A DNA stretch of 64,000 bases, taken from contig NC_089731.1 of assembly GCF_035083965.1 (NCBI RefSeq), forward strand, positions 751,501-815,500, in the 5' to 3' direction. Shown piece after piece: positions 219 through 45,481 of the stretch (position 1 is its first letter; the number at the start of each line of letters is the position of its first letter). The position numbers and the translations under genes were made by a program. A model generated the notes under the pieces. That model was not told the DNA's origin. It ran no database searches and saw only the letters and a list, made by a program, of their open reading frames with translations. This stretch comes from Branchiostoma lanceolatum (lineage: Eukaryota; Chordata; Leptocardii; Amphioxiformes; Branchiostomatidae).

Positions 219-332
219 CAACTTCACAGCTGTCGCCTTCGTACATGTCGGTGCACGCGCATGCGTACTGCGCGAACTCGTCCGTGCAGGTCCCGCCGTT
301 CTGACATGGATTCGACTCACACTCGTCGATTT
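219..332 (-). CDS. Gene A exon 11: EGF6, calcium-binding type
   Basis: Encodes [16 protein letters not shown] to [12 protein letters not shown], 38 codons with six cysteines. IDEC plus [12 protein letters not shown] fits calcium-binding EGF with a beta-hydroxylation site. CESNPC fits the O-glucose consensus and CQNGGTC the O-fucose consensus. Donor GTGAGT at 213-218; the next exon lies left of the window. Confidence 0.87.
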
Positions 333-43800: not shown

Positions 43801-45481
43801 ACGATGTACTATTTGCGGAAACGACCGATAAGAATAAGGCGGCCTTTCCAATTATTCTAAGACTCGGTGCATTTCCTGGGGTTGAGTTTGGGACTTATGG
43901 TTTTAAAAGCTCCACGAATTCGGCCACTGCGGTTAAATTATTACAGGTGGCGAAAGATGGCAGAACTAGATACTACAAACTGCCCAAGAAGACCAATGAG
44001 GAAAAAAATCTCTTAGAGGCCGATCAGATCAGAATGTGCAGGAGACATTGCGTACATTACGTTTATTAGATAATACAATTTTTTTTGCGTAGAACGCTAG
44101 ATGTATAACAAGAAAATGGAGCCAAGGCATGACATATTCAGTAGATGGACAGTCTCATCTCCTGGTCCAATGAATAATAAATACCCACACTTTTGATAGA
44201 GTGCTTTATGAAAAAGTGCAAACATTTGAGCTGGCCCATATCTCTTGTTTTCATGTGTTGTCTCAAATATTTTGAACGCATCCAGTGAACATTTCTCTTT
44301 AACCAGTGAAAGAAAAAAAATAAATTAAAGCAATACTTACCACTGGCCCAAAGTTGATGTCATAAACTTCCTCGTCTGTTACGCACTTAAGATAGGTCCT
44401 GTGAGAGGAACCAATAAAAAAGAATGAATGGATGATCAGTACTAAAGAGACTTAAGGATTGTTGCACCTATTTTGGTCATGTTACTTTGTATGGAGTGGG
44501 GGGGTCCTTATCCAGAATGACAAATATTTAATCTAAGATTCCGAAGTACAATGGAAAAAAATACATGTAGGAGACCATAATGAGATCTTTGTTTTGTCGA
44601 CACCCAGTTACGTATTGAATATCGTACAAATTACATTGAGTTACTATCACAAACGACAGACAAAGAAACAACAACTCTTAATGAGTTAACTGTTAAATGT
44701 TTCCTTGTATGTTGTGTACTAGGGCTAGCCAATTTGGGTAGTTGGTCAGATCTATGATATAAAGGTATGACCTTGAAGATACCAGTAACAAAACTTACAA
44801 AATGCACTTCTTTAATTATCAATTAAATTAGCTTGAGAGTTTTGGTTATTGCATGGTCGCTCAACAGTCGTCGACTCAGTGGATTCCGGATAAATCTAAG
44901 ATGGCGAGAGGCTCCTCACCTGTCGTTGTACTCTTCTATGAAGGGGTCAATCACCAAGGTCACGTCCATGACTGCGTCTGGGAGACAAGGAGAAAAAAGG
45001 CCGTAATTTTTTGTTTGTTTCTTGGCAAAACCGTCAAACTACAATAAAAGGTAAAGTTGCCCTCATATATTCCAATCCTTGTTCGCTTAGCGCTTGCTTT
45101 CAAAACATCAATAAACTGACATGTATTGACATAAATTTGACATGTTTGGTTTTTAACAATGCAAGTTACATGACACCCGTTTGTGACGTTTAAATTGTTA
45201 CAGAATTATTGTTGTCAGGATCATAAAGGAAAAACTTGGACCTGACAATTTAGTCAGCTCCATTACCTATAGTTTTTTTTAGAAAACTCAGTTTGATCGA
45301 CACGAACATGTTGTGTGATTCCCTTGCAGTCAGAGTCAGTTCAACGAAATTATGTGACGCCATTATACTCCTATTTGTACTAGTAATAAAAAAGGTTAAA
45401 GATTTTCCTACCTGTCATCAATAATTTGTTGGCGACAAAACTGACAAACACCGTAGCAATCCACCAACAAACCCGCATCAT
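34357..45481 (-). CDS. Gene C: complete TIE-like Ig/EGF transmembrane protein with long acidic tail
   Basis: Thirteen exons: 45412-45481, 44920-44977, 44341-44398, 41490-41688, 41137-41265, 40251-40385, 39697-39828, 39032-39196, 38393-38527, 36961-37092, 35729-35845, 35123-35281 and 34357-34829. They total 1962 bp, or 653 residues. Order: signal peptide 1-24, Ig1 to 128, Ig2 129-216, four 8-Cys EGFs 217-404, two 6-Cys EGFs 405-496, membrane helix 510-528, cytoplasmic tail 529-653. EGF2 contains [11 protein letters not shown] exactly as in vertebrate TIE receptors. The tail has no tyrosine and no kinase. It is a type I surface protein; the function is unknown. The second Ig has lost both canonical cysteines, as in vertebrate TIE. 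Confidence 0.88.
35123..35281 (-). CDS. Gene C exon 12: EGF6, 6-Cys module
   Basis: Encodes a proline-rich lead ([11 protein letters not shown]), then [12 protein letters not shown] and [17 protein letters not shown] fits the O-glucose consensus. The exon continues as TVVRRPAPT before a GTGGGT donor, forming a juxtamembrane stalk. Confidence 0.86.
35729..35845 (-). CDS. Gene C exon 11: EGF5, 6-Cys module
   Basis: Encodes [15 protein letters not shown] to [18 protein letters not shown] fits the O-glucose consensus and CQYGGTC the O-fucose consensus. 39 codons, phase 1 at both ends. Three decayed copies lie upstream at 36150-36500. Confidence 0.86.
35913..36143. mobile_element. MITE family 3, copy in gene C intron
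   Basis: Ends AAAGCCCCCCTCTCACTGG and CCAGTGAGAGGGGGACTTT. Same family as 20087-20311 in the opposite orientation; it shares GTGTTACCCTTGACTTTAA. Confidence 0.8.
36150..36500 (-). repeat. Decayed copies of gene C EGF5 exon
   Basis: Three copies near 36160, 36310 and 36445 of the acceptor part of exon 35729-35845 (GAGCCGATAGGGTGGCAGG; GGGGCTCAACA), about 140-bp spacing, with frame-breaking changes. Confidence 0.75.
36961..37092 (-). CDS. Gene C exon 10: EGF4, 8-Cys module
   Basis: Encodes [16 protein letters not shown] to GYMGPDCQ, 44 codons, donor GTAGGG. Six copies of its acceptor half lie immediately upstream, mostly at an exact 87-bp spacing. Confidence 0.87.
37122..37627 (-). repeat. 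Six 87-bp partial copies of gene C EGF4 exon
   Basis: Copies of the acceptor and first half of exon 36961-37092 with end points at 37186, 37273, 37360, 37447, 37534 and 37621, exactly 87 bp apart. Since 87 is a multiple of three, a reading frame ([19 protein letters not shown] per unit) stays open through the whole array on the minus strand, and another on the plus strand. Confidence 0.93.
37690..37905. mobile_element. MITE family 3 relative next to the 87-bp array
   Basis: Starts near GCGGCATCTCGACTGCGAC and ends near CACGCTTGCAGTGAGG. The interior matches the 35913 copy in part (GGCGGCGTCGCTGCGTCCT; GATGAAATTCGTTGACCGC). Confidence 0.55.
38393..38527 (-). CDS. Gene C exon 9: EGF3 with nine cysteines
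   Basis: Encodes [16 protein letters not shown] to GYLGTNCQI. The paralogous modules have eight cysteines; this one has a ninth in GAGCCLTC, leaving an odd cysteine. Phase 1 at both ends, donor GTGAGT. Confidence 0.87.
39032..39196 (-). CDS. Gene C exon 8: EGF2, diagnostic TIE module
   Basis: Encodes [14 protein letters not shown] to [30 protein letters not shown] is shared exactly with vertebrate TIE1/TIE2 and is the best single family marker here. It is 55 codons, a few longer than in A and B. Acceptor-side partial copies lie upstream at 39208-39405. Confidence 0.9.
39208..39405 (-). repeat. Partial copies of gene C EGF2 exon, acceptor side
   Basis: Four short copies of the first part of exon 39032-39196 (CAGGTTACACTTCGT, then TACCTGTTGTGACCG) with their acceptors, at irregular spacing and increasingly degenerate. 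Confidence 0.8.
39697..39828 (-). CDS. Gene C exon 7: EGF1, TIE-type 8-Cys module
   Basis: Encodes [14 protein letters not shown] to [14 protein letters not shown], 44 codons with eight cysteines, phase 1 at both ends, donor GTAGGT. Confidence 0.89.
40005..40215. repeat. GAT-rich trinucleotide tract
   Basis: GATGATGATG runs with GAAGAT and ATACTGAT interruptions in the gene C intron after exon 40251-40385. Confidence 0.88.
40251..40385 (-). CDS. Gene C exon 6: Ig2, second part
   Basis: Encodes [19 protein letters not shown] then GIMRLLVR. A serine replaces the F-strand cysteine (GIYES versus GVFEC in gene A), matching the cysteine-free Ig2 of vertebrate TIE2. Phase 1 at both ends. Confidence 0.85.
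40790..41131 (-). repeat. 69-bp partial copies of gene C Ig2 exon, donor side
   Basis: At least four units with donors near 40926, 40995 and 41063 (69-bp spacing) plus two degenerate ones further left. Each has about 15 bp of exon end, the GTAAGA donor and a common intron piece (CCCAATAGCATCATATC). Because 69 is a multiple of three, a plus-strand reading frame stays open by accident. Confidence 0.88.
41137..41265 (-). CDS. Gene C exon 5: Ig2, first part
   Basis: Encodes [20 protein letters not shown] then [13 protein letters not shown]. Lacks a B-strand cysteine. Phase 1 at both ends, donor GTAAGA. Four to five 69-bp partial copies of the donor end follow. Confidence 0.84.
41427..41482. repeat. 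(CAAA)n microsatellite
   Basis: AACAAACAAACAAGCAAACA run immediately downstream of the exon 41490-41688 donor. Confidence 0.88.
41490..41688 (-). CDS. Gene C exon 4: Ig1, C-terminal part
   Basis: Encodes [13 protein letters not shown] to [26 protein letters not shown] and [13 protein letters not shown] supplies the F-strand cysteine. Starts phase 0, ends phase 1 at GTAGGA. A degenerate satellite array starts right before its acceptor. Confidence 0.85.
41699..42738. repeat. Degenerate satellite in gene C intron, left part
   Basis: Units of about 140-230 bp with GTTCACACGCAGGGTGGCAC, AGCATCATTCTTCTA and GGCCGCCATCTTGAATT blocks, near 41700, 41930, 42130, 42340, 42490 and 42660. Interrupted by the insertion at 42739. 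Confidence 0.82.
42739..43574 (+). mobile_element. Retroposed insertion with poly-A tail and 12-bp target-site duplication
   Basis: 836 bp inserted into a satellite unit. CTTTACGCACTG stands at both 42727-42738 and 43575-43586. The element ends GAATAAAATTT plus an A11 run. It has no long reading frame and contains degenerate short repeats (CCTGCACAGAAACCCAGGG-like). Probably the truncated 3' end of a LINE or another retroposed RNA. Confidence 0.85.
43575..43850. repeat. Degenerate satellite in gene C intron, right part
   Basis: Continues the interrupted unit (CTTTACGCACTGCAGGGG) and one more copy, with GGGCCGCCATCTTGAATTTT and AAGGTCACAATGCACT blocks. Confidence 0.82.
44341..44398 (-). CDS. 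Gene C exon 3: Ig1, B strand
   Basis: A second 58-bp exon, encoding [18 protein letters not shown] with the B-strand cysteine. It parallels FLKCVSDEA in gene A. Enters phase 2, ends phase 0 at GTAAGT. Confidence 0.82.
44920..44977 (-). CDS. Gene C exon 2: Ig1, N-terminal strand
   Basis: Encodes [19 protein letters not shown]. The DVTLV start equals that of gene A Ig1. The exon is 58 bp, enters phase 1 and leaves phase 2 at GTGAGG. Confidence 0.8.
45412..45481 (-). CDS. Gene C exon 1: start codon and signal peptide
   Basis: Two adjacent ATGs (45479-45481 and 45476-45478) open [19 protein letters not shown], a plausible signal peptide. An in-frame ATG at 45583 would add a long charged N-terminus and is less likely. 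Phase 1 donor GTAGGA. Confidence 0.75.

Follow-up and report, generated by a model that had tools for sequence, protein, structure and literature searches.

TIE receptors are central to the stability of vertebrate blood vessels. In TIE2 (TEK), a head of two immunoglobulin-type (Ig) domains and three EGF modules is followed by a third Ig domain (Ig3), then three FNIII repeats, and then a cytoplasmic tyrosine kinase. FGFRL1 (FGFR5) joins a receptor-kinase-type ectodomain to a membrane helix and a non-catalytic tail, and receptors of the SCARF1/MEGF10 type carry a series of EGF modules with eight cysteines (8-Cys) and no TIE-type Ig pair. In the sea urchin, the original paper on SpTie1/2 – by its title – reportedly presents the gene as an orthologue of Tie1 and Tie2. 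The available text of a further paper describes SpTie1/2 as an orthologue of vertebrate Tie2 that encodes a receptor tyrosine kinase (PMC12113024). Here, we describe three TIE-like genes in a stretch of 64,000 nucleotides (the window) from the lancelet Branchiostoma lanceolatum, taken from the forward strand of NC_089731.1 at positions 751,501-815,500; two of the three end without a kinase.

The genes – C, B, and A – adjoin one another on the minus strand between positions 219 and 45481, and were assembled using motif searches, splice-site scoring, and phase checks. Gene C (ATG at 45481, stop at 34357; 13 exons, 653 residues) and gene B (ATG at 32313, stop at 19218; 13 exons, 516 residues) are complete, and gene A (ATG at 13758, last donor at 219; 11 exons, 471 residues visible) runs out of the window. 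All three encode a signal-like N terminus (called by eye and from hydropathy, with no predictor), two Ig domains, four 8-Cys-type EGF modules, and two 6-Cys EGF modules. An earlier note on this DNA had proposed three minus-strand paralogs of this composition, and the 37-exon chains confirm it; its limits prove to be the start codon of C and the donor of the last visible exon of A, and the TIE motifs it quoted are found, one per gene, in C at 39066-39098 (within EGF2), in B at 24738-24779 (CHDETGECICPPGF), and in A at 8444-8458 (RLIVR, with four further copies in a tandem array). All 37 exons chain with consistent phases and GT-AG junctions, although the junctions were picked on phase and on a simple score for splice sites rather than from transcripts, so that the GT-AG rule holds partly by construction. 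The 18 EGF exons are all phase 1 at both ends, and the cysteine counts of EGF1-6 are 8,8,8,8,6,6 in A and B and 8,8,9,8,6,6 in C. The Ig exons are more variable: Ig1 of C has one intron more than Ig1 of A and B, and two intron phases differ as well. Ahead of the last part of Ig1 the phase is 2 in A and B but 0 in C, and inside Ig2 it is 2 in B but 1 in A and C.

The best explanation, to which we assign a probability of roughly 0.6, is that A, B, and C are old tandem paralogs that have a TIE-homologous head, are single-pass and non-catalytic, and descend from a kinase-bearing TIE. That the head is homologous to Ig1-Ig2-EGF1-3 of TIE receptors is well supported by sequence comparison. The comparison set consisted of solved-structure sequences, with human TIE2 (chain 2gy5) as the TIE receptor compared. 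Residues 25-348 of A match TIE2 residues 2-321 as a single stretch from Ig1 to EGF3 with an expectation value (E) of 5e-37, among the best 60 of 82 matches. TIE2 is the best match of C (residues 88-361 against 60-321, starting inside Ig1; E 3.2e-52) and of B (residues 189-374 against 180-354, from the end of Ig2 on; E 3.8e-34), with queries that ended at EGF4 (405/653 and 380/516 residues) and left out EGF5 and EGF6. The order Ig1-Ig2-EGF1-EGF2-EGF3 is thus colinear with TIE2 over the whole head in A, from inside Ig1 in C, and from the end of Ig2 only in B. A profile of Ig1-Ig2 aligns to TIE2 residues 2-187 as a single stretch (E 2e-8). These matches, together with the profiles and the module scoring given below, support the earlier note's claim of a TIE-type ectodomain; the outcome it named as refuting, placement of the modules outside the TIE clade, was not found among the solved-structure sequences, the only ones searched.

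The EGF modules also bear on whether A, B, and C might instead be engulfment or scavenger receptors of the MEGF10/SCARF type with a convergent, TIE-like appearance. An 8-Cys EGF series, a helix, and a tail do resemble that class in general form, and outside TIE the EGF1-4 profile matches SCARF1 best. However, that profile finds TIE2 at 7.5e-37 and SCARF1 only at 4.1e-12, some 25 orders of magnitude behind, followed by the EGF-like protein 6u11 (7.2e-12) and WIF1 (4e-10); MEGF10 is absent from the eight matches listed. Scored singly, EGF1 prefers TIE2 EGF1, EGF2 prefers EGF2, and EGF3 and EGF4 prefer EGF3, so that 12 of 12 modules score best with the TIE2 module expected from their position, narrowly so for EGF3 of A (70.5 for TIE2 EGF3, 68 for EGF2). 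In a tree of EGF modules, in which TIE2 is the only TIE included, the four EGF2 modules (A, B, C, and TIE2) group together at 99/99, and the 11-residue EGF2 motif of C is identical in TIE2. Both Ig domains at the N terminus can be aligned to TIE2 as well, down to a feature of Ig2: its first canonical cysteine is missing in A, B, and C (C has no cysteine in Ig2, and A and B retain a later one only), and the aligned TIE2 Ig2 stretch has no cysteine. A MEGF10/SCARF origin is therefore disfavored, and on these comparisons would be very improbable.

The three copies are far apart from one another. In the ectodomain alignment (471/471 residues of A, 462/516 of B, and 496/653 of C), A shares 39% identity with B and 39% with C. 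The proportions of synonymous and nonsynonymous differences (pS/pN) are 0.58/0.45 for A-B, 0.70/0.44 for A-C, and 0.68/0.44 for B-C over 438-460 codons, with pN below pS in all three pairs, and constraint is visible although synonymous sites are near saturation. That 11-13 exons remain free of stops at such divergence points to functional genes rather than decayed copies. The colinear TIE2 matches, the multi-exon frames of B and C at 39% identity to A, and pN below pS in 3/3 pairs exclude chance.

Beyond the head, B and C share with TIE2 a single membrane helix, as they do the signal-like start, but the rest differs. Both continue from EGF4 through EGF5 and EGF6 to the helix with no third Ig domain after EGF3 and with a shortened Ig2 loop; the mean hydropathy of the helix over 19 residues is 2.47 in B and 2.94 in C. 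A stop follows after about 30 residues in B and 125 in C, so that of the membrane helix, short tail, and stop proposed in the earlier note, helix and stop hold for both genes and 'short tail' suits B better than C. The tail of C, which lacks tyrosine, contains 32 acidic and 16 basic residues and a single acidic dileucine-type motif of the form [DE]xxxL[LI], ENSFLI. No kinase motif was present in stop-free pieces of at least 25 residues in the six frames of the window, and the three minus-strand frames, read through stops against Pfam at E 0.01, gave no kinase match and only EGF-type domains; the Pfam scans covered the minus strand and, on the plus strand, the part beyond 49000. The read-through scan was sensitive enough to detect a plus-strand matrix metalloproteinase fragment (3.4e-14) and the 6-Cys EGF exons of all three genes. 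FNIII repeats were likewise absent from the B and C chains and, by Pfam at E 0.01, from the minus strand, though the scans missed known Ig exons, and their absence is less secure than that of the kinase. The statement that the genes lack the kinase accordingly stands for B and C, which stop soon after the helix and have no kinase match; the end of A lies outside the window. A could be a full TIE receptor kinase, with B and C the only kinase-free copies, in that its C-terminal exons are beyond the window and its match to TIE2, over residues 25-348, is the longest. We regard this as rather unlikely: EGF4-EGF6 follow in A just as they do in B and C, at the place where TIE2 has Ig3.

As to origin, we infer that a kinase-bearing TIE was duplicated and that its C-terminal half was lost or replaced. 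Where TIE2 has Ig3, FNIII, and kinase, B and C have one more 8-Cys EGF, then two EGFs of the 6-Cys type, the helix, and a tail that is not catalytic. The earlier note placed a kinase-free ectodomain before or beside the signaling form. In the former order, the TIE ectodomain would first have been an adhesion or binding protein, fused to a kinase later. Three divergent copies lie together here, two of them shown to be kinase-free, and no kinase remnant was found in the minus-strand introns and spacers, as that order would have it. However, SpTie1/2 – like A, B, and C a TIE homologue of an invertebrate deuterostome, and compared here by its description only – is reported in the accessible text to have a kinase (PMC12113024), which should place the kinase-bearing form before the split of echinoderms and chordates. 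With SpTie1/2 reported as a TIE-orthologous kinase, a kinase-bearing TIE should be older than A, B, and C and later loss is the simpler course; an ancestral kinase-free form is not supported, and we consider it improbable.

The numbering of TIE2 was set on the printed chain by adding 22, which we take to be the right offset. With it, Phe and His fall at 161 and 168, as in PMC8294587. TIE2 binds angiopoietins through Ig2. The text of PMC8294587, as far as available, states that within the Phe161-Glu169 motif binding by F161A and P166A could not be saturated, and that Arg167-Glu169 matters mainly for angiopoietin-1 (Ang1). The loop that follows Gly159 is shorter in A and C than in TIE2, by about six residues, with Ile at the position of Phe161 and nothing opposite Pro166; B is unaligned to TIE2 at the contact loop, but aligns without gaps to the short loop of A. 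Since the contact loop is shortened and nothing aligns to Pro166, angiopoietin binding in the style of TIE2 is not predicted for the three proteins. This weakens the suggestion of the earlier note that they are decoys, that is, membrane-bound traps that would bind angiopoietin-type ligands with fibrinogen domains through Ig2. Their Ig2 is indeed of the TIE type, the part of PMC5237311 available reports at least five ANGPTL-like genes from Branchiostoma floridae, and a laboratory-selected TIE2 with F161I, deletion of R167/H168, and two more changes is described as keeping Ang2 binding (PMC8294587), A and C also having Ile at 161. Against a role as ligand traps stand the loop, shorter by about six residues in A and C and as short in B, the unmatched Pro166, and the failure of F161A and P166A to reach saturation binding in the same account (PMC8294587); on present sequence comparison such a role seems unlikely.

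Several observations weigh against descent from a kinase-bearing TIE with a homologous head and a non-catalytic end. Whole A ranks Delta-like 1 first (3.1e-38), narrowly above TIE2, mostly through separate 6-Cys EGF pieces (among the best 60 of 82 matches). B matches TIE2 significantly only from the end of Ig2, since its Ig1 is too diverged, and where this match extends past EGF3 it is probably spurious. The Ig1-Ig2 profile scores 9ncf, an 'Immunoglobulin-like domain protein', above TIE2 (2.5e-13, in four partial stretches), with a tail protein (3.6e-8) and DSCAM (1.5e-6) shortly after TIE2. Pfam Ig_Tie2_1 reaches only E 0.015 in A, short of the cut-off, and does not appear among the matches of B or C. 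In the EGF module tree the EGF1 group has support of 32/0, EGF3 and EGF4 are unseparated, and branches are long. The exon chains are models from the DNA and include three weak donors (GTTTTT in the first Ig1 exon of B, and GTTCAT and GTTCGC in the first Ig2 exons of B and A). Known Ig exons and most of the EGF1-4 exons went undetected in the Pfam read-through scans, which are therefore weak evidence on FNIII; only B and C are seen to end without a kinase, the C terminus of A falling outside the window; and a dileucine-type motif occurs in 13.5% of shuffled C tails as well.

If A, B, and C are nevertheless non-catalytic derivatives of a kinase-bearing TIE, as we favor, the Ig/EGF head would bind a partner on another cell, in the matrix, or in solution, and the tail would at most sort the receptor, as ENSFLI in the acidic, tyrosine-free tail of C may do. 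The likeliest predicted roles are binding and uptake, or action as a co-receptor that modulates a full-length TIE. More tentatively, lancelets may keep a long-diverged and constrained family of kinase-free TIE ectodomains whose recognition involves neither angiopoietin-type binding nor phosphotyrosine signaling. FGFRL1 has the same design as B and C in a different receptor family, and the likeness is one of analogy only. Literature searches (amphioxus, cephalochordate, invertebrate, and kinase-less TIE) turned up, among the titles and abstracts listed, no description of a kinase-free TIE homologue, most subscription papers being out of reach; as far as these searches extend, an FGFRL1-like design would be new for TIE, and an earlier description may exist. 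With kinase-free TIE heads in the lancelet, the TIE recognition module would be used outside kinase signaling. Cephalochordates are described, in the available part of one paper, as being without endothelial cells (PMC12353867), and on the more tentative reading above the TIE head would be put to a use that is neither vascular nor kinase-based, in an animal without true endothelium. A, B, and C would also serve as a natural test case for the partners that a TIE head binds with a shortened angiopoietin loop and no kinase.

Table 1. Exons of genes C, B, and A, with window positions and the basis of each assignment.
Feature	Positions	Strand	Basis or remark
C exon 1, start codon and signal-like N terminus	45412..45481	-	donor GTAGGA
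C Ig1 part 1	44920..44977	-	DVTLV as in A; resembles TIE2 Ig1 start
C Ig1 part 2	44341..44398	-	LKCVTDE, Ig1 first Cys
C Ig1 part 3	41490..41688	-	GAFYCDV, Ig1 second Cys
C Ig2 part 1	41137..41265	-	exon chain, TIE2 alignment
C Ig2 part 2, ends MRLLVR	40251..40385	-	exon chain, TIE2 alignment
C EGF1, 8 Cys	39697..39828	-	53% identity to TIE2 EGF1
C EGF2, 8 Cys, with EGF2 motif	39032..39196	-	59% identity to TIE2 EGF2
C EGF3, 9 Cys	38393..38527	-	exon chain, Cys count, module comparison
C EGF4, 8 Cys	36961..37092	-	exon chain, Cys count, module comparison
C EGF5, 6 Cys	35729..35845	-	exon chain, Cys count
C EGF6, 6 Cys, and juxtamembrane linker	35123..35281	-	exon chain, Cys count
C last exon: membrane helix, 125-residue acidic tail without Tyr, stop	34357..34829	-	hydropathy 2.94 over 19 residues
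B exon 1, start codon and signal-like N terminus	32250..32313	-	MAATTSFSCFFLLASCVLHLA
B Ig1 part 1, weak donor GTTTTT	30190..30289	-	exon chain
B Ig1 part 2	28481..28623	-	exon chain
B Ig2 part 1, weak donor GTTCAT	28019..28118	-	exon chain
B Ig2 part 2, ends MRVIVR	27438..27619	-	exon chain, TIE2 alignment
B EGF1, 8 Cys, with CHDETGECICPPGF	24716..24847	-	56% identity to TIE2 EGF1
B EGF2, 8 Cys	23798..23947	-	exon chain, module comparison
B EGF3, 8 Cys	22753..22887	-	exon chain, module comparison
B EGF4, 8 Cys	22154..22285	-	exon chain, module comparison
B EGF5, 6 Cys	21468..21587	-	exon chain, Cys count
B EGF6, 6 Cys	20361..20489	-	exon chain, Cys count
B membrane helix exon	19759..19853	-	hydropathy 2.47 over 19 residues
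B last exon, remainder of short tail and stop	19218..19286	-	VKKSKGNEGRVSPEAQAESDEE then stop
A exon 1, start codon and signal-like N terminus	13698..13758	-	gccacc before ATG; donor gtgagt
A Ig1 part 1	11340..11502	-	Pfam Ig_Tie2_1 E 0.015, below cut-off; TIE2 match
A Ig1 part 2	10509..10660	-	exon chain, TIE2 match
A Ig2 part 1, weak donor GTTCGC	9148..9228	-	exon chain
A Ig2 part 2, ends MRLIVR	8443..8613	-	exon chain, TIE2 match
A EGF1, 8 Cys	6787..6918	-	51% identity to TIE2 EGF1
A EGF2, 8 Cys	5737..5889	-	exon chain, module comparison
A EGF3, 8 Cys	4908..5036	-	exon chain, module comparison
A EGF4, 8 Cys	3702..3839	-	exon chain, module comparison
A EGF5, 6 Cys	1850..1969	-	exon chain, Cys count
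A EGF6, 6 Cys, last exon in view; gene goes on past window	219..332	-	exon chain, Cys count

'Mirages' – tandem repeats across exon-intron boundaries – are described for the lancelet globin, Adh, TnC, and PGBD5 genes in the accessible text of PMC3087553 and PMC3902484, and the arrays seen here resemble them: of 13 arrays in the gene span, 7 overlap an exon boundary and 7 contain exon-like sequence, 10 doing at least one of the two, and such arrays occur in all three genes. Enrichment at exon boundaries is not significant (7/13 against a permutation mean of 4.7, p 0.14), and the 7/13 arrays with exon-like sequence were matched in 45 of 200 random placements, in which the null pieces may overlap arrays. 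The 10 arrays of this kind, with units of about 55-280 bases, lie at 707-1020, 3800-4480, 7858-8546, 9865-10547, 10643-10894, 20843-21235, 21315-21475, 36228-36501, 37022-37626, and 40792-41146. Partial copies of EGF exon starts are also seen in translations of the minus strand upstream of the true exon, at 24000-24430 (EGF2 of B), 39180-39480 (EGF2 of C), and 5079-5243 (EGF3 of A), where the repeat finder gave no long-period arrays.

Rfam at gathering thresholds gave no match in the window. Several intergenic tandem arrays with periods of about 130-170 occupy 52115-58040, between gene C and a metalloproteinase gene, with no Pfam match at E 0.01. The latter is represented by two exon-like matrix metalloproteinase stretches on the plus strand at 63214-63928 (Pfam Matrixin at 6.2e-4, below the cut-off, and 3.4e-14), and the gene apparently leaves the window at its right end.

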